A stretch of DNA of 29,574 nucleotides from Candidatus Thorarchaeota archaeon MP8T_1 (GTDB lineage: Archaea; Asgardarchaeota; Thorarchaeia; Thorarchaeales; Thorarchaeaceae): NCBI GenBank assembly GCA_002825465.1, contig PJER01000028.1, positions 1-29,574 on the forward strand, given 5' to 3'. Shown in pieces: positions 13,191-26,651 of the stretch. A program made the translations under genes and the position numbers. Under the pieces are notes generated by a model. The model saw nothing but the letters and a program-made list of their open reading frames with translations, had not been told where the DNA came from and ran no database searches. Numbering within the stretch: the first letter of the stretch is position 1; the number at the start of each line of letters is the position of its first letter.

Positions 13191-15152
13191 ATGAAAGAGA
13201 ATTATGAGTTCGGAGGCGATATTGTCTGGAGACCATCAAAAGACAATGTCGATCGAGCAAATCTAACGAGATTCATGAAACTGCATGGAATTGAAACCTT
13301 TGATGAACTCATGCAACAATCGACAGAGGATGTTAGTTGGTTCACCGATGCAATTCTCAAATTTCTGGACATTCAATTCTATAAACAATATAGTGAAGTT
13401 ATAGACCTCTCTCGAGGTATTGCTTGGCCACGATGGTGTGTGAACGCCAAGATGAACATTGTTCACAATTGTCTTGACAAGTACATTGGCACATCAGTTG
13501 AGAATCAGACAGCTCTAATTTGGGAAGGCGAGGATGGCAATGTTAGATCAATGACATATGAAGAATTGTACAGAGAGGTGAACAAAGTTGCCAATGCTCT
13601 CCGTGATCTAGGCCTTGGCTTTGGAGATTCTATTGGACTCTACATGCCAATGATCCCTGAGATTACAGTTGCTCTTCTTGCGATAGCTAAGATTGGAGCC
13701 ATCATCTTACCTCTATTCTCTGGATTTGGTGTTAATGCGATAATTGACAGACTAGGAGATGCAGATGCAAAAGCTATGTTTACTGTTGATGGTTCTGTTC
13801 GTAGAGGTAAAACAGTTCCTATGAAGTCTGTTGCTGATGAAGCTGCTGAGAGAATCCCATCATTAAGACATATGATAGTTCTAAACCTAGCTGGATTACA
13901 AATTGAGATGAAGCCAGGTCGTGACCACTGGTGGAACGATCTAATAGATGATCAGTCTGATATTTCTGAAACTGAGATAACAGATGCAGAGTCTCCAGTG
14001 ATGATTATATATACATCAGGTACAACTGGACTCGCAAAAGGAGCAGTCCATACACACTGTGGATTTCCTATCAAGTCAGCTCAAGACATGGCTTTTGGAA
14101 CTGACTTGCATGCTGGTGAAGTAATAGCATGGGGTCCCAATGTAGACATGGGCTGGATGATGGGCCCCTGGCTAGTATTTGGATCCCTGATCTTAGGAAG
14201 TACTTTCTTTCTCTATTCTGGAGCAGTAGATTATCCTGGTCCTGACCGTATTTGGGAGTTAGTAGAAAAACATCAAATATCGATATTGGGTGTTTCCCCG
14301 ACTCTAATTCGTCTTCTTATGACACACGGAGATGAGCCAACTGATAAACATGACCTATCCTCACTGAGATACTTTGGCTCAACTGGAGAGCCATGGAATC
14401 CAGATCCGTGGATGTGGCTCTTTGAAAAGGTTGGAAAGAAGAGAGTTCCAATCATCAACTATTCTGGCGGAACTGAGATTTCTGGTGGTATTGTAATGGG
14501 CAATCCCCTACTTCCTCTGAAGGCGTGCGCATTCTCAGGACCATGCCCCGGTATTGCAGCTGATGTCTTCGACGATGATGGAAATCCTGTTCGAAACAAA
14601 GTTGGCGAATTGGTCATCAAAGCTCCTTGGATTGGCATGACACGAGGATTTTGGAAGAATCCCGAACGATATGAGAAGACCTACTGGTCGAGATGGGATA
14701 ATATATGGGTTCATGGTGACTTTGCAGCAATCGATTCTGATGGTCTATGGTATATTCTTGGTCGGTCTGATGACATTATCAAGGTGGCTGGGAAACGGTT
14801 TGGACCTGCAGAAGCAGAGTCGGTTCTAGTTGCTCACCCATCTGTCAATGAGGCTGCAACGATAGGAGTACCAGATAAAATCAAGCTCAACGAGCTTGTT
14901 GTTTTTTGTGTACTCAATCCCGGAGTGGAACCCTCAGAGGAGCTACGCAAGGAACTGAAGCAATCAGTAGCAAAAGCAATGGGCAAACCACTTACTCCAC
15001 GCAAAATATTGTTCGTTTCTGACCTTCCCAAGACAAGAAGCGCGAAAGTCATGCGAAGGATGATTCGTGCAGCATACCTAGGAGAGGATCCAGGAGATAC
15101 TACATCATTGGTCAATCCTGAAGCTATGGAAGAAATTAGAAGAGCAAGATAA
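13191..15152 (+). CDS. Acyl-CoA synthetase (acetyl-CoA-synthetase-like AMP-forming ligase)
   Basis: 653 residues from ATG 13191; TTG 13185 is possible. This adenylate-forming enzyme activates a carboxylic acid with ATP and transfers it to CoA. An N-terminal ACAS_N-like region is followed by the P-loop YTSGTTGLAKG (about residues 274-284), STGEPWNPDPWMW (about 397-409), GDFA (about 509), GRSDDIIKVAGKR (about 524-536) and PKTRSAK near 613-619 with the catalytic, acetylatable lysine. Overall it resembles acetyl-CoA synthetase, but the DTWWQTETG block, whose Trp blocks the acyl pocket in true Acs, reads NYSGGTEISGG here. The pocket is probably larger and the substrate longer than acetate (inference). 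It stops 5 bases from the convergent DUF1801 gene. Confidence 0.88.
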   Translation: MKENYEFGGDIVWRPSKDNVDRANLTRFMKLHGIETFDELMQQSTEDVSWFTDAILKFLDIQFYKQYSEVIDLSRGIAWPRWCVNAKMNIVHNCLDKYIGTSVENQTALIWEGEDGNVRSMTYEELYREVNKVANALRDLGLGFGDSIGLYMPMIPEITVALLAIAKIGAIILPLFSGFGVNAIIDRLGDADAKAMFTVDGSVRRGKTVPMKSVADEAAERIPSLRHMIVLNLAGLQIEMKPGRDHWWNDLIDDQSDISETEITDAESPVMIIYTSGTTGLAKGAVHTHCGFPIKSAQDMAFGTDLHAGEVIAWGPNVDMGWMMGPWLVFGSLILGSTFFLYSGAVDYPGPDRIWELVEKHQISILGVSPTLIRLLMTHGDEPTDKHDLSSLRYFGSTGEPWNPDPWMWLFEKVGKKRVPIINYSGGTEISGGIVMGNPLLPLKACAFSGPCPGIAADVFDDDGNPVRNKVGELVIKAPWIGMTRGFWKNPERYEKTYWSRWDNIWVHGDFAAIDSDGLWYILGRSDDIIKVAGKRFGPAEAESVLVAHPSVNEAATIGVPDKIKLNELVVFCVLNPGVEPSEELRKELKQSVAKAMGKPLTPRKILFVSDLPKTRSAKVMRRMIRAAYLGEDPGDTTSLVNPEAMEEIRRAR

Positions 15153-15157
15153 TTTTC

Positions 15158-15523
15158 TCATTCCCGTTGGTTCTGTTTTACTCTGAACTTTACAATATTC
15201 TTTACTAATTGAAGCGGAATTGGCTTGTTTAAGGGGAACTGAATAGATCCTTTACCCTGTTTGTAAGGCGTCAGTTCTTCCTTGAAGGCTTGAATTGCTG
15301 ATGTTCCTCCGGGGTAGAAACCAATGTGGTTCTTGAATGCCGCAAAATGAACTAGGTTCCCATTGAACTTGAATGTAGGAATCCCGTAGGATATAGCCTC
15401 TTGAGCAGTAGGTGCATTTTCTTGGATTGTTTTTCTCACTTCATTCAAGATAACTTGCACATCTTGCGGAAACATAGTTATGTACTCATCTATCGTTGCT
15501 ACCTTCTTCCTCGATGTACTCAT
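15158..15523 (-). CDS. DUF1801 / YdhG-like protein
   Basis: 121 residues from ATG 15523, chosen because GGTGAT, a perfect anti-SD match, lies 7 bases upstream. The frame stays open to 15565 but has no SD there. The motifs TIDEYITMFPQDVQVILNEV near the start, AISYGIPTFKFNG, HFAAFKNHIGFYPG and GKGSIQFPLNKPIP are characteristic of the small single-domain DUF1801 family. Family members have been linked to iron handling by a frataxin-like fold, with no agreed enzymatic role. It follows an uncharacterised gene by 32 bases on the same strand, so the two are probably cotranscribed. Confidence 0.8.
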   Translation of the reverse strand: MSTSRKKVATIDEYITMFPQDVQVILNEVRKTIQENAPTAQEAISYGIPTFKFNGNLVHFAAFKNHIGFYPGGTSAIQAFKEELTPYKQGKGSIQFPLNKPIPLQLVKNIVKFRVKQNQRE

Positions 15524-15555
15524 TTCTCTTATCACCAAATCATCTCTTTCAAGGG

Positions 15556-15870
15556 TCATACCCATGAATCAAATTGATACGGAATCTTGTATTCTATAAG
15601 AAATTCTCTAAACTTTGAGAATGCCTCACTACTTCCTCCAAACACCTTTTTGATTAGTGAAAGGAGTAGCAGATCTTTGTTTTCTTGGCCGACATACAAC
15701 CAATATTCATAGTCGGAGTCTCCCCAATACTCTTCAGGACCTTTTCCTACATCTTGACCAGACATAAGGACTTCTCCAGTTTCTTTTATTTCGATGTCAA
15801 TAAAGACAGAGGTTTCTCCTCTGCTCTCATAGAGTCTAGCACGAGAATTTGATTCGTCCATCTTGAGCAT
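15556..15870 (-). CDS. Conserved-looking small acidic protein, function unknown
   Basis: 104 residues from ATG 15870; TTG 15885 is an alternative and neither has a clear SD. The pattern LYESRGETSVFIDIEIKETG, LMSGQDVGKGPEEYWGDSDYEYW, LLLLSLIKKVFGG and FLIEYKIPYQFDSW looks like a beta-hairpin domain followed by two helices. I recall similar short bacterial and archaeal proteins without an assigned function. No catalytic motif or membrane segment is visible. It lies directly upstream of the DUF1801 gene in the same direction. Confidence 0.65.
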   Translation of the reverse strand: MLKMDESNSRARLYESRGETSVFIDIEIKETGEVLMSGQDVGKGPEEYWGDSDYEYWLYVGQENKDLLLLSLIKKVFGGSSEAFSKFREFLIEYKIPYQFDSWV

Positions 15871-16064
15871 ATCTGAATATTTCAAATGCTATCAATCTTC
15901 AGGTTGAACTGTCTGTGAAATCAATCTTGCCACTTTTCTGAGTTCTGTACACATCAAATAACTCAATAACAAAGAGGTCAATGAGAAAGGTATCTGTAAT
16001 TGAAGATCTTAAGTTTGAAATACCCTGAATTTCTTTCAACAAACACCATTGAGGTATCCAATTA

Positions 16065-16074
16065 TTTATTTATA
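16065..16074 (+). promoter_or_regulatory. TATA-like box for the MoaD-like gene
   Basis: TTTATTTATAC-type sequence at about 16065-16074 lies 21-30 bases before the ATG at 16095, the spacing expected for a leaderless archaeal transcript. AAGGT at 16084-16088 could act as a weak SD if transcription starts further upstream. Confidence 0.5.
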
Positions 16075-16094
16075 CAACCTTCTAAGGTATTGAT

Positions 16095-16325
16095 ATGATT
16101 GAAGTTACGCTCTATGGTGATGTCAAAAAGAAAGTGATGGAACAAATTCCAGATGTTAGTTCCATCATGACACTAGAATATGTTGAGGGAGAGCAATTTC
16201 AAGAATTACTAGGCCGCCTAGGACTGAGCCTGGAGCATGTTGGGGATTGTTACATCAATATCAAACCTGCAAAACCTGATACGGTTCTCCACGACCATGA
16301 TTCAATTGAACTTAATCAGCTATAA
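16095..16325 (+). CDS. MoaD/ThiS-like beta-grasp (ubiquitin-like) protein without terminal Gly-Gly
   Basis: 76 residues. The pattern fits the small beta-grasp fold: MIEVTLYGDVKKKV as first strands, EGEQFQELLGRLGLSLEHV as the central helix, CYINIKPAKPDTVLHDHD as the strand and loop where MoaD/ThiS carry the prepared-for-sulfur tail, and DSIELNQL at the end. Sulfur carriers and archaeal SAMP/Urm1-type modifiers end in Gly-Gly; this one ends in Asn-Gln-Leu, so it cannot be activated by the normal adenylation route. A single cysteine (about 53) is present. It may be a structural or regulatory relative. It stands alone between its own promoter and a strong hairpin. Confidence 0.7.
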   Translation: MIEVTLYGDVKKKVMEQIPDVSSIMTLEYVEGEQFQELLGRLGLSLEHVGDCYINIKPAKPDTVLHDHDSIELNQL

Positions 16326-16357
16326 GTTCCTCTACTCTCTATTCTAGTTCTTCACAG

Positions 16358-16407
16358 GAAGTATAGTCCATTCCATTTTTGGAATGGACCGCAATTAACT
16401 ATACTTC
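16358..16407. terminator. Nested perfect hairpin between convergent genes
   Basis: Outer arms GAAGTATAGT (16358-16367) and ACTATACTTC (16398-16407) are perfectly complementary. Inside them CCATTCC (16368-16374) pairs with GGAATGG (16381-16387) around ATTTTT, leaving a bulge of about ten bases (ACCGCAATTA) on one side. It sits between the stops of the MoaD-like gene (16325) and the ABC permease (16421). The symmetry suits a bidirectional terminator, but 17 paired bases with a bulge is more elaborate than most archaeal terminators. Confidence 0.6.
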
Positions 16408-16420
16408 AACCTATTATCAA

Positions 16421-17164
16421 TCAGAATTCATGTTTCTTGAATCTCCAAATTGCTACTGCAATCAATACCACAAGGACAATCAATGTGGCAACTGCAGGAG
16501 TAATAGGATAACTAGATCCATCGATAAGACTGAGTGATATCCTGTATAATCCCCATGGACCATATGGACTGATGAGTTCTATCTGTCCCAAATTGATTCC
16601 AAGGAACACAAATAGAAAAGGTACTGCCATCACTGGACCCGGCTTTGAAAAGAACGTACCCAGGCAGATTGTAAGAAACGCCAGGAACATCTGCCAAAGA
16701 GCCATTGGGATTAGGGAAATGAGGTAGATTGATAGACTTGGTGCAAGACCAACTCCTAGGAATACAAGATACACCACCATTCCTGGTATAAATATCATTG
16801 AGACCGAGAATCCAAGTGCAAGACCTAGAAACTTTGGAAGCAGGAATGCCTCTCTTGATACAGGTTTCGAGAGAACCCATGCAGCTGAACCTGAACGTTT
16901 CTCTTCAAGGATATTCTCATGAGCAATAATGATCGTTGCAATCGATGGAAAGATAGTAGCCATCATATAGAAAATCATCATACCCGCTTCAGGATCTTGA
17001 ATGCCGGCTGCTCCAAACATTGATAGCATCGCACTCCATAGAAGGGCCTGTTGCCACCATGCTTTTGTTCCAAACCATGCTTTCAATTCCCTTTTCATCA
17101 TGATTGAGAATCCCATTCTCCATCCTGTTTCAGTGACTGGTACAAATGACTCCTTAGTTATCAT
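16421..17164 (-). CDS. ABC-2 type transporter permease
   Basis: 247 residues from ATG 17164; GGAGG lies 9 bases before it, whereas ATG 17173 would have no spacer. Six hydrophobic segments are visible. The N-terminal MMKRELKAWFGTKAWW amphipathic segment is followed by a helix, then the cytoplasmic loop HENILEEKRSGSAAWVLSKPVSREAFLLPKF, which is the coupling region typical of ABC-2/Nat-like permeases. It overlaps the ATPase gene by 11 bases, so the two are translationally coupled and form an exporter, probably as a dimer of each. Substrate unknown; candidates for this class are drugs, lipids or small ions. Confidence 0.85.
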   Translation of the reverse strand: MITKESFVPVTETGWRMGFSIMMKRELKAWFGTKAWWQQALLWSAMLSMFGAAGIQDPEAGMMIFYMMATIFPSIATIIIAHENILEEKRSGSAAWVLSKPVSREAFLLPKFLGLALGFSVSMIFIPGMVVYLVFLGVGLAPSLSIYLISLIPMALWQMFLAFLTICLGTFFSKPGPVMAVPFLFVFLGINLGQIELISPYGPWGLYRISLSLIDGSSYPITPAVATLIVLVVLIAVAIWRFKKHEF

Positions 17165-18134
17165 TACTATCATCCTCCACTAACTTCATGAATATCTCTT
17201 CAAGCTCGTATTGCTTTAATCCGTAATCTAGAACATTCACACTATCATCTGCAAGTACAATTCTCAGGAGTTGCTTCTTTGCGACTGCATCATCCGTGAC
17301 ATTCACAACCCAGTGCGTTTGTCCCTTCTCTGTTCTCTCAGTTATAGATGAAACCCATGATTCTGACTCTAATTTTGATTGTACTCGTTGAGCATCTCCC
17401 TCAAGGGCTAGAGTATAAGCTATCCCATCACTTCCTCCAAGCAAATCCTCTATCGGCGCTTGTGCTACTAGATTGCCTTTATTCAAAATGGCAACTCTAT
17501 CACTCACTCTCTGCACATCATCAAGTATGTGTGTACTGTAGAAGATTGTCGACTCAGATCTTAGTTTCTCCATAATCTTCAGAACCTTCTCCCTCCCCTC
17601 AGGATCCAGTCCTGCAGCAGGTTCATCCAAAATTAACAACTCAGGGAAATTAATCTGTGCTTGAGCGATTCCTAATCGTTGCATCTCTCCTCCCGAGAAT
17701 CCTTCAATTGGTCGATCTGCCTTGTCTTCAAGGTCAACAGTTTTCAAAAGGTACGCTATTCTCTCATCCATCAGATTTTCTGGGCTTTTGAAGTACAGAC
17801 GAGCAGCAAACTTCATAGTTTCCCTAGCTGTCAGCTCCTTGTAGAACTTTGGTTGTTGAGCAAGGTATCCTACTTTTCTTTTTACTTGGTCGTTTTGAGT
17901 CACAATATTATTTCCTAGGACTTCAGCACCTCCAGAGGTCAAATGAGTGAGTCCAAGTAGTAATTTTATTGTCGTTGTCTTTCCAGCTCCATTGGGGCCT
18001 AGAAAGGCAAAAATGGAATTTTTCGGAACATTGAGATTTAAATTATTTAGGGCAACTATGTTCCCATAGTTCTTACTCAAATTCTCAGTTTCAATTACAT
18101 AGGGTCCTGTGGACAATTGTATCTCTCCTGACAA
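17154..18134 (-). CDS. ABC transporter ATP-binding protein (ABC-2 exporter)
   Basis: 326 residues. Walker A GPNGAGKTT (about 46-54), Q-loop near LAQQPKFYKELTARE, signature FSGGEMQR (about 146-153), Walker B LLILDEP (about 166-172), D-loop GLDPEG and H-loop STH (about 200-202) are all present. After residue 230 there is a C-terminal extension of about 95 residues, as seen in CcmA/Nat/DrrA-type exporters. The start is TTG, with AGGAG 4 bases upstream; a second in-frame TTG at 18116 also has AGGAG upstream, so the N-terminus is uncertain by six residues. It pairs with the permease downstream. An AT-rich gap of 66 bases separates it from the MFS gene. Confidence 0.9.
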   Translation of the reverse strand: MSGEIQLSTGPYVIETENLSKNYGNIVALNNLNLNVPKNSIFAFLGPNGAGKTTTIKLLLGLTHLTSGGAEVLGNNIVTQNDQVKRKVGYLAQQPKFYKELTARETMKFAARLYFKSPENLMDERIAYLLKTVDLEDKADRPIEGFSGGEMQRLGIAQAQINFPELLILDEPAAGLDPEGREKVLKIMEKLRSESTIFYSTHILDDVQRVSDRVAILNKGNLVAQAPIEDLLGGSDGIAYTLALEGDAQRVQSKLESESWVSSITERTEKGQTHWVVNVTDDAVAKKQLLRIVLADDSVNVLDYGLKQYELEEIFMKLVEDDSNDN

Positions 18135-18200
18135 TCTTCTCCTAGATTGATAAGCATCTGATTCTTTACTATAGTTAAAAAATTAGCGCTATGTTGTTTT

Positions 18201-19514
18201 TCAAATCTTTTCACGATTCATGTCCTTTGCTGGATCATCCGCCTCGGCTAATACAAACACTGCCACTATCAGAAGCACAGATGCAAACAGAAAAGGGAAG
18301 AATCCAATGAGGCCTGAATGTGGTTCCCCTGGTACGGGTGTCGCTGTAAGGTCTGCTAAGAATCCGAGAAGAAGTGGTCCCATCACGAACCCAAAGTCAC
18401 TAATCATACGATAGAGTCCCATTGATATCTCTAGTTTCTCCTGTGGAGATACATCTGTGATATATGCCGCACTAGGCCCTGAGAATCCAATTACTGCACC
18501 ATACACTCCAAGGAGTACTGCAAATGTCAGAAAATCTGTAGAAAAGAATGGTATCACCAATACCACTATTGCAGATAGAACAAGGGCGAGCGCAAGTGGG
18601 ATTTTTCTTCCAATTCTGTCAGAAACACTTCCCATCGGAGTCATTGTTATAGCTGTTGTGATGCCTCCTATTGTCAGGACTATACCAATATCGCCCGAAC
18701 TCAGACCTAGATTATTCGTTCCAAACAGTGGTATCAATGTAGATCTAACTCCGGTGCGAAGGAAAAACATCGTGAATACAGCAAAGGTCACCAAGAGAAA
18801 TGAACGATTGGACAGTACTTCTTTCACGTCTCTGAGAACAGTTCCTGATTCGAGTAGTGATGAATTATTTGAGTTTGTTAATTTTGGAAGCAATAGTGTT
18901 GGAGATATAGCCAACCCAGTCATGACAGCATATGCAAAGAAGGGCATCCTGATGTCATAAAGGTCTGCTAGAATTCCTCCGAACGTTGGACCAAAGACTG
19001 AACCAAGAAGAAGCATTCCCATATACAGACTCATCCATTGTCCCCGTTTCTCTTTACCTGATATTTGAGCTAAAAACACAGTAGCAGTAGTAACATACAG
19101 AGCTGAGCCTGATCCTTCTATCATTCGAGCAATTACAAGAGTGATATAATTTGGTGCAATGCCAGCAAGTATCGATGAAGTGGAGAGGAGTATGAGCCCA
19201 GTTATCATAATTGCTTTCTTATCGTATCTCCTAGCAAGAAGGCCAGCGGGCATATCTAGAATCATTCTGGTCACTGCGAATGAGGATACAACAAAACCAA
19301 CTAATGTGTAGGATACCTGAAAACTTTCAGCATAGGTTGGTAGAATTGGAGCAACCATACTAAGTCCAAGAAGGACACAAAAAGTCACTAACGATAGATT
19401 TAGCACTGTTAATACATTTCCCTCTTGAAATGGTTGTTGGGCATCATTCTCATCGAGGGTGATCTCTTCATTTACCAAATATATCAGACCTTTTTGTATC
19501 GGGTTATTCTTCAC
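18201..19514 (-). CDS. MFS transporter
   Basis: 437 residues with about 12 hydrophobic segments and a cytoplasmic N-terminus of about 35 residues. MFS motif A-like loops appear twice: DMPAGLLARRYDKKAI (first half) and GSVSDRIGRKIPLAL (second half, the canonical D-R-x-G-R-K form). Motifs such as RMIEGSGSALY resemble the drug:H+ antiporter subfamily, so a multidrug or small-molecule exporter is a reasonable guess, not a proof. The start is GTG with a TATA-like ATAATTTATA at about 19531-19540, close enough for a leaderless transcript. It lies upstream of the ABC pair on the same strand. Confidence 0.87.
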   Translation of the reverse strand: MKNNPIQKGLIYLVNEEITLDENDAQQPFQEGNVLTVLNLSLVTFCVLLGLSMVAPILPTYAESFQVSYTLVGFVVSSFAVTRMILDMPAGLLARRYDKKAIMITGLILLSTSSILAGIAPNYITLVIARMIEGSGSALYVTTATVFLAQISGKEKRGQWMSLYMGMLLLGSVFGPTFGGILADLYDIRMPFFAYAVMTGLAISPTLLLPKLTNSNNSSLLESGTVLRDVKEVLSNRSFLLVTFAVFTMFFLRTGVRSTLIPLFGTNNLGLSSGDIGIVLTIGGITTAITMTPMGSVSDRIGRKIPLALALVLSAIVVLVIPFFSTDFLTFAVLLGVYGAVIGFSGPSAAYITDVSPQEKLEISMGLYRMISDFGFVMGPLLLGFLADLTATPVPGEPHSGLIGFFPFLFASVLLIVAVFVLAEADDPAKDMNREKI

Positions 19515-19616
19515 GATATGAAAAATCAGCTATAAATTATCTTAGATGAGTACGTTATATCATCTCAAGCATTTCAAGAGGATTTTGCAGTTTTCAAGAT
19601 TTGGAGTTCAATATTT

Positions 19617-19677
19617 CTAAAAAAAGAGAAACCCGGGTCTTGATCCAATCAGCTACGTGATAAGACCAACAACCCGG
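19617..19677 (-). terminator. GC-rich hairpin with T-tract ending the micropeptide unit
   Basis: On the minus strand CCGGG (19677-19673) can pair with CCCGG (19637-19633), and GGTCTT (19667-19662) with AAGACC (19641-19636). The two helices share some bases and so compete or stack. The transcript then reads into a run of seven T with interruptions (TTTCTCTTTTTTT, ending near 19620). This looks like a terminator for the short minus-strand unit starting near 19965, and it separates that unit from the MFS gene. Confidence 0.6.
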
Positions 19678-19685
19678 AATTAGTA

Positions 19686-19835
19686 TCATTTCTTTGGCTT
19701 TGGCTTTGGCTTTGTTTCTGCCTTTGTCTTCTTTGCAGGAGCTTTCTTCGCTGCTGGCTTCTTAGATCCCGTAATATCACATCCTAGTGAGTTTTCGTTT
19801 CGGCATTCTGAGGCACATTCATTCCTGGTTGAAAA
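19686..19835 (-). other. Lys/Pro/Ala-rich reading frame lacking a start codon
   Basis: Minus-strand open frame of 49 codons between a TAA (19836-19838) and a TGA (19686-19688). It contains three cysteines near the start (NECASECRNENSLGCD) and then a strongly basic tail, KKPAAKKAPAKKTKAE followed by TKPKPKPKK, resembling linker-histone or HU-like tails. No ATG, GTG or TTG occurs in frame. An ATG in the neighbouring frame (MNVPQNAETK...) reaches an A-rich run GAAAACT where a -1 slip would enter this frame. It may be a decayed gene, a frameshifted gene, an assembly error, or chance. It lies 30 bases downstream of the acidic micropeptide and upstream of the terminator. Confidence 0.35.
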
Positions 19836-19867
19836 TTATCGACCAAAATGAAAGAAACTTACGACAA

Positions 19868-19954
19868 CTACTCATCCCAGTCGTCGTCATCGTCCCAGTC
19901 ATCGTCATCGTCGAAATCATCGTCCCAGTCGTCGTCTTCGTCGTAAATGAACAT
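19868..19954 (-). CDS. Asp/Trp micropeptide 1 (28 residues)
   Basis: The peptide reads MFIYDEDDDWDDDF then DDDDDWDDDDDWDE. Nineteen residues are Asp or Glu, with Trp at 10, 20 and 26 and Phe at 14, and there is no basic residue. GAGGTG (19965-19960) lies 5 bases before the ATG, an excellent match to the 16S tail. A TATA-like ATATTTTA near 19990-19997 is positioned for transcription start about 12 bases upstream. I know no matching family. The charge and evenly spaced aromatics suggest cation binding, mimicry of nucleic acid, or interaction with a basic protein; all are inference. A paralogue-like peptide is at 26571-26651. It is too short for usual gene finders, so a non-coding explanation (simple GAC/GAT repeat) must be excluded. 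Confidence 0.6.
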   Translation of the reverse strand: MFIYDEDDDWDDDFDDDDDWDDDDDWDE

Positions 19955-19959
19955 TTTTT

Positions 19960-19998
19960 CACCTCACGACAGTGTTACCTCTATAAAGAATAAAATAT
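19960..19998 (-). promoter_or_regulatory. SD and TATA-like box for micropeptide 1
   Basis: GAGGTG at 19965-19960 is a six-base match to the anti-SD with 5 bases to the ATG. CATATTTTATTC at 19998-19987 is a TATA-like element whose expected start site (about 26 bases on) falls near 19967, giving a short leader that still contains the SD. Confidence 0.55.
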
Positions 19999-20176
19999 GC
20001 CCTGTCAAATTTAGAGGAAAAATAGTCCTTTAAACAAGAAAATTGGATTAAATAACTCATTGTGATTGTTCAAAAGGAAAATCAAATTTATTTTCACTAA
20101 TATCAGGATTATGAATATTGTAATCAAAAAATTGAGGTATATTAGATGATTTAAGTACCGTCACCAGAGGTTTTCC

Positions 20177-20184
20177 GTATAATC
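20177..20184 (+). promoter_or_regulatory. TATA-like box for the GNAT gene
   Basis: GTATAATC at 20177-20184 is 28-35 bases before the ATG at 20212, consistent with a leaderless or nearly leaderless transcript. The rest of 19999-20176 holds no gene or structure I can support. Confidence 0.45.
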
Positions 20185-20211
20185 TAAATTCTGCTATTCA
20201 ATCCCAAAGAT

Positions 20212-20781
20212 ATGCGTTCAGACATCATCCTCCCAATAGAAACAAACAGGTTGGTTATTCGACCATATATTATTGATGATGCGAAGTGGTACTATCAGAT
20301 GAGTGTGAAGAACAAAGAACACCTTGCACGATACGAATCTGAGAATCCAGCCATGTTCATTCAGACAGAAGCAGATGCTTTGAAGGTAATCAAGGATTTT
20401 GTATCGCTTTGGGATGAGCAAAGATACCGCTTCATGGGTGTATTTCTGAAAGAAACTGGCAATTTCGTCGCTCAGATCTATCTTGGTAAAACAAATGAAG
20501 AACTTCAAGAATATGTGATTGGCTATTTTGCGGATATTGACCAGACTGGTAATGGATATGTATCCGAAGCTGTTACCGCAGTGGTCAGAGAGCTATTTGT
20601 CACAGCAGGTGCTCACAGAATTCAGATTGAAACTGATGACACTAATGTCAGGAGTATTAGCGTTGCGCAAAAGTGCAGTTTTGTTAGAGAGGGTCATCTA
20701 CGTGAGAACAAGAAGAATCCTGATGGAACTATTACAGGTACTCTATACTTTGGGCTCTTGAAGAGTGAGTTTCAAGAGTGA
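20212..20781 (+). CDS. GNAT acetyltransferase, RimJ/RimL type
   Basis: 189 residues. The opening LPIETNRLVIRPYIIDDAKWYYQMS is the standard first strand-helix of RimJ/RimL-like enzymes (ETxRLxxRP). The acetyl-CoA loop appears as DQTGNGYVSEAVTAVV (about 104-119), in the Q/RxxGxG position, and HRIQIETDDTNVRSISVAQKCSFVREGHLREN is the typical NxxSxxxxxKxGF-like end. Such enzymes acetylate N-terminal amines of proteins or small-molecule amines; the substrate is unknown. It has its own TATA-like box and ends 6 bases from the convergent membrane protein. Confidence 0.88.
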   Translation: MRSDIILPIETNRLVIRPYIIDDAKWYYQMSVKNKEHLARYESENPAMFIQTEADALKVIKDFVSLWDEQRYRFMGVFLKETGNFVAQIYLGKTNEELQEYVIGYFADIDQTGNGYVSEAVTAVVRELFVTAGAHRIQIETDDTNVRSISVAQKCSFVREGHLRENKKNPDGTITGTLYFGLLKSEFQE

Positions 20782-20787
20782 TTTTAC

Positions 20788-21717
20788 CTATTTTCGTAGA
20801 ATAATGACAAACAATAGAATTAGACCACTTAACAATCCAATTCCATATGACACATCAAAATACAAGCTGTAATCTGCTAATCCGGACCCATAGAAAGCAA
20901 CTGTTGTAAGAAATCCGACTGTAATTGTTACCAAGATTAAGAGTTCTCGTTCCAGATCCGTGAAGTTTTTGTGATTCAGAGAGAACATTCGCAACCAAAT
21001 CACTACACTAAGAATTGCTAATGGTGTAATTTTTACTAGGACAAGCGATATTGGAAGCAGGACAAGTCCACTCAGAATCGCTCGTATCATGAACAGTCTC
21101 AGACCATATCTCTCAAACTCTTTTTCATAGACACTTCCATAGTCTTTTCTCAATGAAGATTTGTAACCCCTCCAGACAGAGAATCTCCAATCCCCTAACT
21201 TCTTCTGTGCCTTTGATATACTTGAAGGTTCAACCTTTTCTATCTCCGGTGAATACTCTCCCTTGATTATGGGAATAACATAGACCAGTAGGATGAGAGA
21301 CCAAACACCGAAAATCATGGATAGAAATTCTAGATCTGTCAGTGACCTTGCAAGATAGATTGCTCCCCATATTGTGTAGATAGCATAGAATATCAATCCC
21401 AGCGCTGGTATTAGCACTAGGCCAATCACAATCTTAGCTTTGGTTTTACTTCCTTTCATTTGAGGTGAGAGGTATCTGAACATTAGAGAACAGAAGGTGG
21501 CATATGTAAGAGAGATTCCCAATCCACTAAGAAATCTCATAACGACGTTTGATACTACCGAGAGTTCAACAGAAAATACACCAGTAATTAGAGAAATTGG
21601 ATTCCATCCGTTGAAAGAGAGTATGATTACGTACAATACTAACCCAAACAAAAATGCGATTATGAACGAGTCTCTCTGATTATCTGCAATCTTCTTGCTA
21701 ATACGCTGCAAAACCAT
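20788..21717 (-). CDS. Integral membrane protein with about eight helices, unknown function
   Basis: 309 residues, not a family I recognise. Eight hydrophobic segments can be seen, roughly at 18-36, 55-80, 95-122, 132-153, 205-226, 229-247, 260-280 and 285-307. A cytoplasmic-looking loop between helices 4 and 5 is rich in Lys/Arg/Trp (KKLGDWRFSVWRGYKSSLRK). No transporter, protease or glycosyltransferase motif is evident. ATG at 21717, no SD. Convergent with the GNAT gene and separated by 121 bases from the DUF116 gene upstream. Confidence 0.75.
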   Translation of the reverse strand: MVLQRISKKIADNQRDSFIIAFLFGLVLYVIILSFNGWNPISLITGVFSVELSVVSNVVMRFLSGLGISLTYATFCSLMFRYLSPQMKGSKTKAKIVIGLVLIPALGLIFYAIYTIWGAIYLARSLTDLEFLSMIFGVWSLILLVYVIPIIKGEYSPEIEKVEPSSISKAQKKLGDWRFSVWRGYKSSLRKDYGSVYEKEFERYGLRLFMIRAILSGLVLLPISLVLVKITPLAILSVVIWLRMFSLNHKNFTDLERELLILVTITVGFLTTVAFYGSGLADYSLYFDVSYGIGLLSGLILLFVIILRK

Positions 21718-21838
21718 AGATGAACAATCCCTAATCAGTCTTCAACGACACCGGATATAATCTCTGCCTTTGCATTGTGTACCACATTCAATATCATCGA
21801 ATTGATGTAAATTTGATTGTCACTGATATAAAATTGAA

Positions 21839-22462
21839 CTATTCACTTGTATCAGAAATATCCAATTTAACCAGAACACTATCGAGATCTACTTCCGTAT
21901 TGACACAGCCTGCCTTACTTAGTAAGACTGCTTGAGTTGGAATACCATACTCTCCAATCTTATCAACAGCTAATTTAGCATCATCAAAGCAAGCGATTCC
22001 AAACACAGCACGAGGTCGTGCATTCTTCACGATTCTGATTGCGTGGGAACCACCACCTACCATATACCATTTTATTCCGCGTTCTTCTGATGCTGAAGTA
22101 ATATCTGAAATAACACAAGCACCACATTTCTTACAGTGGTATCCTTCATCATCGATTGGTGCAATGCACTTTTCTGCGTCTCGCAAGCAATGAGGAATCA
22201 ATACAATCCTGTCTTCTCGCTTTACATATTCGTATGCTTTTTGATTAAGGACATTTCCTGCTTCAATGAAAGTATAATTCCACAGGTCCTCATTCATAAG
22301 TTCTAATTCTATTTTGACCTTCTCAGCAAGATCTTCAACAGTGAGTATAGGTTGAGTCACGGCATAGGTTTCTAAAAGTTCACGAATCTTATCGTGGATA
22401 TCGATTTCATGAAGTTTCTCAGAATTCTTGGCAATATCATTTCCATTTAACAACATGTTCAT
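21839..22462 (-). CDS. DUF116 family protein
   Basis: 207 residues. The C-terminal two thirds match DUF116: IVLIPHCLRDAEKC (about 85-98), GYHCKKCGACVI (about 107-118), GIKWYMVGGGSHAIRIVK, PRAVFGIACFDD and a closing AVLLSKAGCVNTEVD. The conserved cysteines suggest a bound Fe-S cluster or zinc; the family is common in anaerobic archaea and bacteria and has no settled reaction. ATG 22462 and ATG 22456 are both possible; AGG next to the first serves the second better. It lies 79 bases downstream of the ornithine-cyclodeaminase-family gene on the same strand, with two small hairpins between. Confidence 0.85.
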   Translation of the reverse strand: MNMLLNGNDIAKNSEKLHEIDIHDKIRELLETYAVTQPILTVEDLAEKVKIELELMNEDLWNYTFIEAGNVLNQKAYEYVKREDRIVLIPHCLRDAEKCIAPIDDEGYHCKKCGACVISDITSASEERGIKWYMVGGGSHAIRIVKNARPRAVFGIACFDDAKLAVDKIGEYGIPTQAVLLSKAGCVNTEVDLDSVLVKLDISDTSE

Positions 22463-22470
22463 CCTAACTG

Positions 22471-22519
22471 GAGAGTTATGCTCTCAAAAATTGCCCTGTT
22501 AAATGACTATGCATCAGGG
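22471..22519. other. Two small hairpins between the OCD-family and DUF116 genes
   Basis: GAGAG (22471-22475) pairs with CTCTC (22481-22485), and CCCTG (22494-22498) with CAGGG (22515-22519). They sit in the 79-base gap between two same-strand genes and could be a weak terminator or attenuator. Stems of five bases can arise by chance. Confidence 0.3.
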
Positions 22520-22541
22520 AAATATCCACTTGACTGCGGAT

Positions 22542-23534
22542 TTAGCTCATCAAATCGATTGAATGTCCAAGTTTCTTCTCTCTCGCTGCTCTTAGTACGA
22601 CATGCGCTGCGGCAATATCTTGTGCTGCAAGACCAGTAGAATCAAAAAATGTAATCTCATCATCTGATTCGCGGCCGCTCTTTTTTCCAAGTAATATGTC
22701 ACCAATCTCCGCATGAACATCATCATCTGTAATCAAACCCTTTGCTATCGCATGTTGAATTTCGCCAATTCTTCTACATTGATTAAGACTATCTACAACA
22801 ACCTTGTCTGCAAGCTTCACAATGGCTGGGTCGTGTTCTTGCTTGCCCGGTCCATCAGCACCTATAGCATTGATGTGCATTCCTCTCTCTATCCAATCCA
22901 CTTCTACCAATGGTTCCTTGGATGGGGTCACAGTAACTACGATATCACTTCCACGCACGACATTTTCACGATTTGATAAATTCTTGACATCTATTCCAAG
23001 AAGAGTTGACATCTCCTTTGCATAGTGTGACGCCATCTTCTCATCTATATCCCATACTCGAACCTCTTCTAATTGGAATAACTCTTTTAATGCAAGCACT
23101 TGCATTCTCCCTTGAGTTCCTGCACCGATGACACCTATTTTGGAGGACTCCTTTCTTGCAAGAACACTAGCTGCAACAGCGCCTGCAGCTCCTGTCCGAT
23201 ATGCAGTGATGTAAGAACCGTCCATGACTGCAAGTGGCATACTTGTCTTCAAGTCTAGTAAAACGATGACAGCCACTCCGGGAGGTAATCCTAACTTATG
23301 GTTATCATAATATCCACTAGCAATCTTTGTACCTATGAGTTCGAAATCTTCAACAAAACCCGATTTGATATCGACCTCGCCATTATGCTTGTGAACATCA
23401 AGATGCATTACAGGAGGCATCTGTACTCTGCCATTAGCAAATGCCATGTATGCTTCTCGTACAGCTTCAATCGTTCTTTTCATTGAAAGGCACGACTCTA
23501 CTTCTTTTCGTGTTAGAATTAATACGTCTGACAT
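22542..23534 (-). CDS. Ornithine cyclodeaminase / mu-crystallin family dehydrogenase
   Basis: 330 residues, the usual family length. N-terminal catalytic part with LTRKEVESCLSMKRTIEAVREAY, MPPVMHLDV, GEVDIKSGF (Lys about 58), GTKIASGYYDN (Lys about 70) and AYRTGAAGA; NAD(P)-binding loop IGVIGAGTQGRMQ (about 133-145); NAIGADGPGKQE; and the closing FDSTGLAAQDIAAA. The family includes ornithine cyclodeaminase, archaeal alanine dehydrogenase, and imine reductases such as ketimine reductase. The sequence does not separate these, so the substrate is left open. The start ATG is 62 bases downstream of the GNAT stop, with a hairpin between. Confidence 0.88.
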   Translation of the reverse strand: MSDVLILTRKEVESCLSMKRTIEAVREAYMAFANGRVQMPPVMHLDVHKHNGEVDIKSGFVEDFELIGTKIASGYYDNHKLGLPPGVAVIVLLDLKTSMPLAVMDGSYITAYRTGAAGAVAASVLARKESSKIGVIGAGTQGRMQVLALKELFQLEEVRVWDIDEKMASHYAKEMSTLLGIDVKNLSNRENVVRGSDIVVTVTPSKEPLVEVDWIERGMHINAIGADGPGKQEHDPAIVKLADKVVVDSLNQCRRIGEIQHAIAKGLITDDDVHAEIGDILLGKKSGRESDDEITFFDSTGLAAQDIAAAHVVLRAAREKKLGHSIDLMS

Positions 23535-23572
23535 CTCGCTCGTAATGTAATCTGTTATTCTGTCTAATGACT

Positions 23573-23591
23573 CTTCTCAATATTAGAGAAG
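23573..23591 (-). terminator. Hairpin after the two-domain GNAT gene
   Basis: CTTCTC (23573-23578) and GAGAAG (23586-23591) are perfectly complementary across AATATTA, 6 bases beyond the GNAT stop. No clear T-tract follows on the minus strand, so it could instead stabilise the 3' end or lie in the leader of the next gene. Confidence 0.4.
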
Positions 23592-23596
23592 TAGAT

Positions 23597-24394
23597 TCAT
23601 CCTGAACAAGTTGCTCTGACAAAATATACAGGATCCGCTTCTGAGTATTTGAATCCCATTTTTTCATACATTTTTTGTGCAGGAGTGTTATCCTTAAAGT
23701 AATGCAAAATAACTAGTTCAGATGTTTTCAAAACCTCATCTACCACAGCCTTAGTGCTTGCAGCAGCATATCCCTTTCTCTTGTGATCTGGATGAGTTGC
23801 AATATTACCAATCTCTGTTCCGTAGGGGGTCATGTAATGAACTCCTGCAACAGCCAAGATCGTACCATCATCTTCGATGATTCCATAAAATGGACCTAGA
23901 TCCATAGCATTTGGAGTCCATGCTGGTGTCCCACTCAGTCGATATAATTCTCTCAATTTATCCGCATGATCGATTGATAGTCTGACTGGAGTTTGTTTGC
24001 ATTCACATTGTAGCATGGTCGACCTGTCTGCAATCATCTGCCGTTCTTTGATTGGTTTCAAGATGACACAAGCCTCACCAAATTGGTTCAGTTGCTCTTC
24101 GGTACAGATAGCAATGAACTCCTTACCTACTAATCGGTCAGAATAATGCGCCATTATCTTCCTCAATGATTCGACATTACGACACCAGAATGCTGTTGCA
24201 AGGAAGTCCAAGTCACTATAAAGAGAGAAGATCGCATCAATTCTTCCGTCATTTCTAAGAATTCTCACATCACACCAATCTCTCAATTGAGTGCAATCAG
24301 CTATCAAGACAATATTAGATAGGGTGTCTTCTGATAGAATTTCTAGGACTTCTTCTATTGCATCTTCTGAAAGAGGTTCAATATCTGTTTTCAT
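23597..24394 (-). CDS. GNAT acetyltransferase with N-terminal extension
   Basis: 265 residues. The C-terminal GNAT domain (about 135-260) shows IIEDDGTILAVAGVHYM, GNIATHPDHKRKGYAAA (the acetyl-CoA loop, R-K-G-Y-A) and LHYFKDNTPAQKMYEKMGFKY, an FR47-like ending. The N-terminal 130 residues have no clear motif and resemble the non-catalytic half of two-domain GNAT proteins. GAGGTGA lies 5 bases before the ATG. Its start is 5 bases past the stop of the DinB-like gene, so the two are one operon. Substrate unknown. Confidence 0.85.
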   Translation of the reverse strand: MKTDIEPLSEDAIEEVLEILSEDTLSNIVLIADCTQLRDWCDVRILRNDGRIDAIFSLYSDLDFLATAFWCRNVESLRKIMAHYSDRLVGKEFIAICTEEQLNQFGEACVILKPIKERQMIADRSTMLQCECKQTPVRLSIDHADKLRELYRLSGTPAWTPNAMDLGPFYGIIEDDGTILAVAGVHYMTPYGTEIGNIATHPDHKRKGYAAASTKAVVDEVLKTSELVILHYFKDNTPAQKMYEKMGFKYSEADPVYFVRATCSG

Positions 24395-24399
24395 TTATT

Positions 24400-24906
24400 T
24401 CACCTCTGTTTTTCTTTGAGTATTTTCATTCTGTACGGGACATAGTCAGTCATAACAACATCTCTTCCAAGAATGCGTAATCCCATCACAATTTGACCCC
24501 GATGATAGGTCGCATGATTTACAAGGTGAAAGAGAATCTCCTCAAAAGTGATTCTGAGCTTTCCATCCTCAGTGGCAATATCTACATGCTCTACTGCTCG
24601 TGTATCCACCATATCTGCAAATAATTTTGTATACTCTCTGATTGAGACGAAAATCTCATCTCTTGTCATATTCAAAAAATCTGGTTCATCACCAGGTTCC
24701 ATACCCATCCAATCAATATACCACTCCCACCAATCTTCTGCAAGATGTGCGTATCGCCTTCGAATACTCCCTCCATTTTCATAAAGATCTCGATTATACT
24801 CCTCATCAGTTAGAGTTTCTACTATCTCCCATATGGTAGTATCTGCCCACTCAAGATATCTACTCATTTTCTCAAGAAGAGTCATAGTAAAAGCAAGACT
24901 ACACAT
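24400..24906 (-). CDS. DinB-like four-helix metal-binding protein
   Basis: 168 residues. The pattern of a DinB/DUF664-type helical bundle is visible: LEWADTTIWEIVETLTDEEY at the first helix, RRYAHLAEDWWEWYIDWM with the first histidine, and LFHLVNHATYHRGQIVMGLRILG with the NHxTYHRGQ double histidine, giving the three-His metal site of the family. Known relatives include thiol transferases and damage-induced proteins; no substrate can be assigned. ATG 24906 is used here; ATG 24885 (residue 8) is equally plausible because neither has an SD. Upstream it faces the secreted Ntn hydrolase across a 165-base promoter gap. Confidence 0.82.
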   Translation of the reverse strand: MCSLAFTMTLLEKMSRYLEWADTTIWEIVETLTDEEYNRDLYENGGSIRRRYAHLAEDWWEWYIDWMGMEPGDEPDFLNMTRDEIFVSIREYTKLFADMVDTRAVEHVDIATEDGKLRITFEEILFHLVNHATYHRGQIVMGLRILGRDVVMTDYVPYRMKILKEKQR

Positions 24907-25071
24907 CTTAAGGCAATTGTCCTTCCATAAGATTGTATTTGCACTTTTTGTCTAATTCTATTATTTGTATCCAGTTACTTTGGAACCTTCTTCAAACATT
25001 GCGTCAGAGGCTGTACTTTTATTTCAAAAATTTAAATCAAAGGATTAAGAACGAAGGGGTTATAATCTGCA

Positions 25072-26570: not shown

Positions 26571-26651
26571 CTACCAATCGTCATCATCATCTTCCCACTC
26601 ATCATCCTCCCAGTCTTCCTCTTCCCATATATCATCATCATCGAATCTCAA
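26571..26651 (-). CDS. Asp/Glu/Trp micropeptide 2 (26 residues)
   Basis: From TTG 26651 the peptide reads MRFDDDDIWEEED then WEDDEWEDDDDDW. Eighteen residues are acidic and Trp lies at 9, 14, 19 and 26. GAGGTG (26663-26658) is 6 bases upstream of the TTG, the same SD and almost the same spacing as in micropeptide 1. GTG at 26660 is in frame but overlaps the SD. Codons vary (GAT, GAC, GAA, GAG), so it is not a plain DNA repeat. It lies 75 bases downstream of the RNase Z-like gene and may be the last cistron of that operon; it stops 2 bases from the convergent Ntn hydrolase gene. Function unknown. Confidence 0.55.
   Translation of the reverse strand: MRFDDDDIWEEEDWEDDEWEDDDDDW

Follow-up and report, generated by a model that had tools for sequence, protein, structure and literature searches.

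Prothymosin alpha is a highly acidic chain for which a fuzzy, charge-driven pairing with a basic partner, the linker histone H1, has been proposed (PMC7661507), and acidic transcription activation domains are acidic chains with interspersed hydrophobic residues (PMC10550315 and PMC8137143). Here we describe acid-1, a 28-codon open reading frame (ORF) in a 29,574-nucleotide stretch of DNA from Candidatus Thorarchaeota archaeon MP8T_1 (hereafter the window), which encodes an acidic micropeptide punctuated by tryptophan. Micropeptides of this kind form a gene family, recognisable by its coding signal, Shine-Dalgarno (SD) sequence, neighbourhood and charge. Our overall reading, to which we give about even weight, is that acid-1 belongs to a conserved Asgard family that makes up a three-part module with a basic protein, p280, and often a Lys-rich micropeptide, and that it acts there as a charge partner or antagonist.

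The module resembles prothymosin alpha and H1 in setting an acidic chain beside an oppositely charged basic partner, and the large opposite net charges of that pair are also found between the Asgard peptides and p280. It differs in that the Asgard peptides are 24-40 amino acids (aa) long, carry regular Trp and are genetically linked to p280; their pairing is putative. Known DNA-mimic proteins are folded. They and acidic inhibitors of basic proteins are likewise small and very acidic, and would occupy a basic nucleic-acid-binding surface, whereas acid-1 is a 28-aa, low-complexity, Trp-punctuated peptide. In acidic activation domains the interspersed residues include aromatic ones. The Asgard peptide shares this arrangement of hydrophobic or aromatic residues along an acidic chain but is free-standing, outside any transcription factor. 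Acidic leader peptides differ again: judged from gene layout, no one regulated gene regularly follows the Asgard peptide within a shared transcript.

A family of acidic, tryptophan-punctuated micropeptides

The acid-1 gene and the signals in front of it lie at the following positions:

19868..19954, minus strand (19954→19868): acid-1, acidic Trp-punctuated micropeptide ORF, identified from its sequence, aligned relatives and the family coding signal
19960..19965, minus strand (19965→19960): SD sequence GAGGTG, 5 bases 5' of the acid-1 ATG
19991..19999, minus strand (19999→19991): TATA-like, promoter-like element CATATTTTA, aligned with CATATTTTA of the relatives G207, G209 and G213

The gene runs from ATG to TAG (28 codons plus stop) and translates as MFIYDEDDDWDDDFDDDDDWDDDDDWDE, with a net charge of -20. 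A first-pass annotation of the window had proposed this ORF without stating a strand; the ORF is real and lies on the minus strand. The three Trp it counted stand, its 19 acidic residues become 20, and the mixing of GAC and GAT among the Asp codons is borne out. It had also pointed to the GAGGTG five bases off and the TATA-like box upstream; both, like the place of acid-1 itself, line up with those of G207, G209 and G213, and the case for a genuine small gene with its own SD sequence and promoter-like element is supported.

The acidic ORFs are under selection on a reading frame, as the third-position excess shows: among 20 acidic genes in four syntenic groups, differences at the three codon positions number 109/78/448 over 1131 codon pairs, counted all-against-all so that pairs are not independent, and the group linked to an MFS transporter gene shows 0/0/24. 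Asp-Glu is the commonest replacement (108 of 244). One could still suppose that acid-1 is no gene, only a GAY/TGG repeat or a chance ORF, given its low-complexity sequence and Asp codons limited to GAC and GAT. This is scarcely credible in view of the third-position excess and of the shuffles: the window holds two ORFs of 20 aa or more with a D/E share of 50% or higher and two or more Trp, and 200 dinucleotide-preserving shuffles gave none in total. Start, stop and SD are moreover kept in syntenic relatives, and a like ORF stands beside distant p280 genes.

We surveyed 227 genomes of the phylum, 47 of them of the class. The pattern W-(D/E)D.D..DW gave 46 matches in 39 phylum genomes (reversed control, 0), which sorted by translation into 22 class carriers of the micropeptide and 17 genomes dropped before counting: 11 where the pattern marks the C-terminal end of a different protein, four with longer acidic ORFs and two in which a long protein matches by chance. 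A second pattern, independent of the first and based on the SD and start, had 16 matches in 15 genomes (control, 0); 14 were known already and G002 was new, and G182, matched by this pattern, has no acidic micropeptide there. A profile (hidden Markov model) search was weak, matching 8 of the 227 genomes, and added G011. In all, acidic Trp micropeptides of 24-40 aa, usually behind a GAGGTG, occur in 30 of the 47 class genomes, 24 beside p280 and 6 without a detected p280; the figure counts genomes with at least one micropeptide found by strict patterns, and the other 17 carry no conclusion.

The 24 p280-linked peptides have 25-40 aa (median 28.5), a net charge of -15 to -24, two to five Trp and no Cys. 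The first-pass annotation had treated loss of frame, SD or Trp spacing in relatives as telling against a gene. The frame is kept, and GAGGTG lies in the last 16 bases 5' of the start in 18 of the 24, the other six having a shorter or more distant match; Trp spacing is conserved loosely, with 50 of 59 Trp-Trp steps spanning 5-9 residues. A TTTAC box stands at a similar distance in 15 of 21 upstream regions examined by eye (covering 21 of the 24 loci).

The suggestion that the peptide belongs to no known family also held in the libraries searched: the acidic peptides tested have no family-model or solved-structure match, and Pfam, NCBIfam, PADLOC, PHROGs and PDB sequences offered nothing convincing. 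When a 40-aa acidic relative served as the query of a protein search, nothing came up at E 1, a result of little weight, as such searches need shared words and low-complexity sequence scores poorly. The usual gene-caller limit is about 30 codons, and a 28-codon ORF falls under it, which explains why the family has no entry in the libraries searched.

Apart from the micropeptides, a protein of about 261 aa in 11 phylum genomes outside the class (L026-L036) ends in one common acidic aromatic tail, FLWEDDDDWFFDF, at 11 of 11 loci.

p280 and the Lys-rich micropeptide

Annotation of the acidic loci revealed p280, since many acidic peptides are divergent from this one protein family. Its members have 272-306 aa and a net charge of +18 to +41 (37 rows), and those homologues that carry a name are called 'hypothetical protein', from organisms given as Thorarchaeota or, for a distant one, Promethearchaeota. 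Searching with p280 first, we found exactly one match in each of 25 of the 47 class genomes (those of G013 and G201 cut by contig ends). In 24 of these 25 loci the divergent strand carries an acidic Trp micropeptide whose start lies 239-392 bp from the edge of the p280 match; in the 25th (G203) the contig ends 322 bp away, too early to tell.

The predicted p280 model (predicted local distance difference test score 88.4, predicted template-modelling score 0.83) has two ferredoxin-like domains and a three-helix bundle. Its best Foldseek matches are PaaX and Rv0674, with Cas2, likewise ferredoxin-like, also among the best (families listed by VIA-align); fold similarity is weak. Cas2 has a conserved catalytic Asp after strand 1, and no Asp occurs in the invariant or 90% columns of p280 alignment A2 (37 rows). 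Library matches are weak as well, with nothing convincing in Pfam or NCBIfam: the best Pfam match of the 37 members is a coiled-coil family (E 0.0007), and PHROGs (E 0.0012, unknown function) and PDB sequences (E 0.043) gave the others. No PaaX model appears for the 37 members among the Pfam matches listed (best 25 of 37 families, E up to 1), nor for three p280s in NCBIfam. With the PADLOC anti-phage defence models, one acidic peptide and three p280s gave a sole match, at E 0.05, and no assignment.

The main rival to our reading arises from these data. p280 could regulate transcription as a PaaX-like protein, with the divergent acidic gene as its target and the peptide acting elsewhere or serving as a small inducer of its own regulator; the divergent layout and spacing at 24 of 25 class loci, the top rank of PaaX and Rv0674, and a promoter-like element common to many loci all fit. 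We consider it unlikely. The similarity in fold is weak, Pfam revealed no DNA-binding domain in four class p280s, nor any below E 0.01 among the matches listed for the 37, and the distant loci described next do not need a regulator-target layout.

Elsewhere in the phylum, a p280 profile search reached 13 more genomes with 15 distant loci between them (E 3.5e-23 to 3.4e-8); gene order there mostly differs from the divergent layout of the class. An acidic ORF (18-95 aa, D/E content of 40% or more, one or more Trp) adjoins p280 in 13 of the 15: downstream on the same strand in 11, often with a Lys-rich gene between, and divergent in two. At the remaining loci we found no acidic ORF in 4.9 kb beside p280 in G192, whose p280 ORF lies 121 nt from the contig start, and none in 8 kb around p280 in G017, which has Lys-rich ORFs on both sides. 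The same criteria gave none in a background of 155 kb, made up of 12 class loci retrieved by their MFS gene, a 13th (L012) being excluded for carrying an acidic peptide; a wider 205-kb background held four, all in loci chosen for the acidic pattern.

The third member of the proposed module is a Lys-rich micropeptide of about 20-33 aa behind the acidic gene, such as MAKKKPAAKKSTKTETKKKKK or MGSKKPTTKKPPAKKAGAKKEAKAAEKPKKK, with a net charge of +10 to +13 (four peptides). It occurs in nine of the 25 class p280 loci, including that of G207, and G003, G008 and G013 have, by eye, Lys-rich remnants only. A Lys-rich start pattern matched nine of the 47 class genomes (reversed control, three matches), in eight of them directly behind the acidic peptide, G200 being the exception. 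At distant loci it lies between p280 and the acidic gene or beyond the acidic gene in 10 of 15; these were picked by eye for a MAKK/MPKK/MSKRKK-like start and an SD-like stretch, 11 of 21 Lys/Arg-rich rows being counted (10 loci) and 10 dropped, several as other-frame readings. Its coding signal is weaker, with codon-position differences of 229/250/459 over 873 codon pairs (16 genes), again counted all-against-all.

Several further features of these loci were recorded. The p280 of G010 (G010:C60:1236-2042) has one in-frame TAG, and its acidic neighbour stays open. On the 3' side of p280, convergent, lie further acidic aromatic ORFs with motifs such as WPEEFWDDD...DDYDDW (L063:4144-4245, L064:1698-1784, L055:456-572 and L056 around 1716-1775). 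An RPB9-type zinc-ribbon protein adjoins two distant p280 genes (L249:3145-3495, L257:1608-1898), a hint at transcription, and the gene 3' of the acidic peptide in L061 (1341-2324) is TFIIB-like by eye. Longer acidic Trp ORFs in L022, L024, L025, L248 and L250 are Lys-rich at their beginning (GPKKGKK..., KKKKVKYW...), as though a basic and an acidic half had merged into a single micropeptide. Those of the four other phylum genomes (L022-L025) were rejected as unlinked to p280, which was found neither in those genomes at E 1e-3 nor by a wider profile in their 2.3-3 kb loci.

A scan of viral contigs with the acidic pattern gave none of the same kind among the matches listed (at least 120 stretches, 80 loci): in the 80 listed loci 64 of 84 matches fall in long frames; the other 20 lie in frames that are short or cut off, among them a 55-aa acidic ORF in L068 that was rejected for its other make-up. 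No viral p280 relative was found among 111 stretches tested, and a megablast search of window positions 15000-25000 against phages returned nothing.

A putative charge partnership

What is kept across lineages, gene orders and sequence drift is charge, aromatic residues and gene company, and the net charges of the three members are opposite: -15 to -24 for the acidic peptides (24), +18 to +41 for p280 and +10 to +13 for the Lys-rich peptides. Because a short polyanion adjoins a strongly basic protein and a polycationic micropeptide, the best reading is that it partners or antagonises p280, the Lys-rich peptide or both, binding being inferred from sequence and gene company. If so, the acidic module would work like charge pairs such as prothymosin and H1. 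The acidic peptide would be largely unfolded and would bind its basic partner or partners by charge, anchored by its Trp side chains; resembling nucleic acid, it could antagonise or chaperone them, shielding them or displacing them from nucleic acid and so tuning when p280 and the Lys-rich peptide occupy DNA or RNA.

Among the functions first guessed for the peptide, partnership with a basic protein now has most in its favour: the gene has a strongly basic protein as its conserved neighbour, and frequently a Lys-rich micropeptide as well. A nucleic-acid mimic is compatible with the data; secretion is unsupported, no hydrophobic leader being seen by eye in any of the 24 p280-linked sequences; and a cation binder stays as a rival.

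Three observations weigh against p280 as the only partner: of the 22 class genomes in which p280 was not detected, six (G006, G011, G202, G211, G212 and G214) have an acidic peptide; p280 was not found within the window; and micropeptides like acid-2, a second window copy described below, keep their MarR/MBL-hydrolase surroundings whether or not p280 was detected in the genome. Since the window has no p280 next door and its Lys-rich reading has a doubtful start, acid-1 may act on a p280 encoded elsewhere or have outlived it.

Copies in genomes lacking a detected p280 also suit the cation-binding account, in which the peptide is a free intracellular polyanion that buffers Ca2+, Mg2+ or polyamines and has no dedicated protein partner, as do its Asp-dominated sequence and a Na/Ca exchanger gene downstream at one locus (G002, L209). 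We rate this a little below the regulator account, as improbable: it explains neither why p280 is so often next door (24 of 25 and 13 of 15 loci) nor why the Trp are kept, and among the neighbours scanned (not every one) the exchanger was seen at that locus only.

The charge partnership can be extended, quite speculatively, to an Asgard system for organising nucleic acid, in which the basic two-ferredoxin-domain protein and a histone-tail-like Lys-rich micropeptide would both be chaperoned by charge by the acidic Trp micropeptide. Such a system would be a minimal counterpart of H1/prothymosin and histone/acidic-chaperone logic, and might form coacervates. Since the acidic peptides tested match neither a family model nor a solved structure, and nothing in print on such an acidic/basic micropeptide module was found in the literature searched, we regard the combination of acidic peptide, p280 and Lys-rich peptide as new as a gene module, claiming for it no membership of any family. 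Gene annotation appears to have overlooked a family that is conserved in several Asgard lineages, its micropeptides being defined by charge pattern and not by fold; that a conserved basic protein keeps company with two micropeptides, one polyanionic and one polycationic, offers a directly testable hypothesis on nucleic-acid handling in archaea related to eukaryotes.

The window neighbourhood and a second copy

Around acid-1 the archaeal window holds the following features:

1-546: small-subunit (SSU) rRNA
18201..19514, minus strand: MFS transporter (Pfam), the synteny anchor downstream of the micropeptides
19632..19677, minus strand: terminator-like G+C-rich inverted repeat followed by a T-rich run, after the Lys-rich reading, by eye
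19686..19772, minus strand: Lys-rich micropeptide reading GSKKPAAKKAPAKKTKAETKPKPKPKK, first codon ACG, frame open and start doubtful
20212..20781, plus strand: GNAT acetyltransferase (Pfam), the divergent neighbour, in the place that p280 takes in relatives
26571..26651, minus strand (26651→26571): acid-2, a second acidic Trp micropeptide MRFDDDDIWEEEDWEDDEWEDDDDDW, with a TTG start and a GAGGTG SD

The window MFS protein has 13 relatives at 66-77% identity, all titled Thorarchaeota. In G207, G209 and G213 an acidic/Lys-rich pair precedes the MFS gene, and compared with these genomes promoter box, SD, acidic ORF and Lys-rich frame are all still present in the window; relatives have an intact start at the position of its ACG. 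Between the acidic and the Lys-rich reading lies an intron-like GTAAGT...CAG, which we took as coincidence.

A co-directional gene downstream, such as this MFS gene (window, G207, G209, G213), a CN-hydrolase (L054), the exchanger (L209) or others (L061, L063, L064), would suit an acidic ORF that is a leader peptide sensing Mg2+ or ribosome state by intrinsic ribosome destabilisation, and acidic nascent chains are known to destabilise ribosomes in bacteria (PMC9718836). We think this very improbable: the co-directional gene, where present, varies between loci, the next larger gene is convergent in ten (L016-L019 and L044 with ACS; L053, L055, L056, L065 and L066 with a phosphorylase), and in L251, L253 and L256 the acidic ORF comes last and is followed by a T-run.

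Turning from leader peptides back to the micropeptide family and its second copy in the window, acid-2 lies in a MarR/MBL-fold hydrolase neighbourhood that the window shares with eight genomes (G003, G004, G006, G011, G211, G212, G213 and G214). In this count G212 lacks the hydrolase there, the G004 contig has, by eye, only the tail end of the hydrolase, and G011 was judged by eye.
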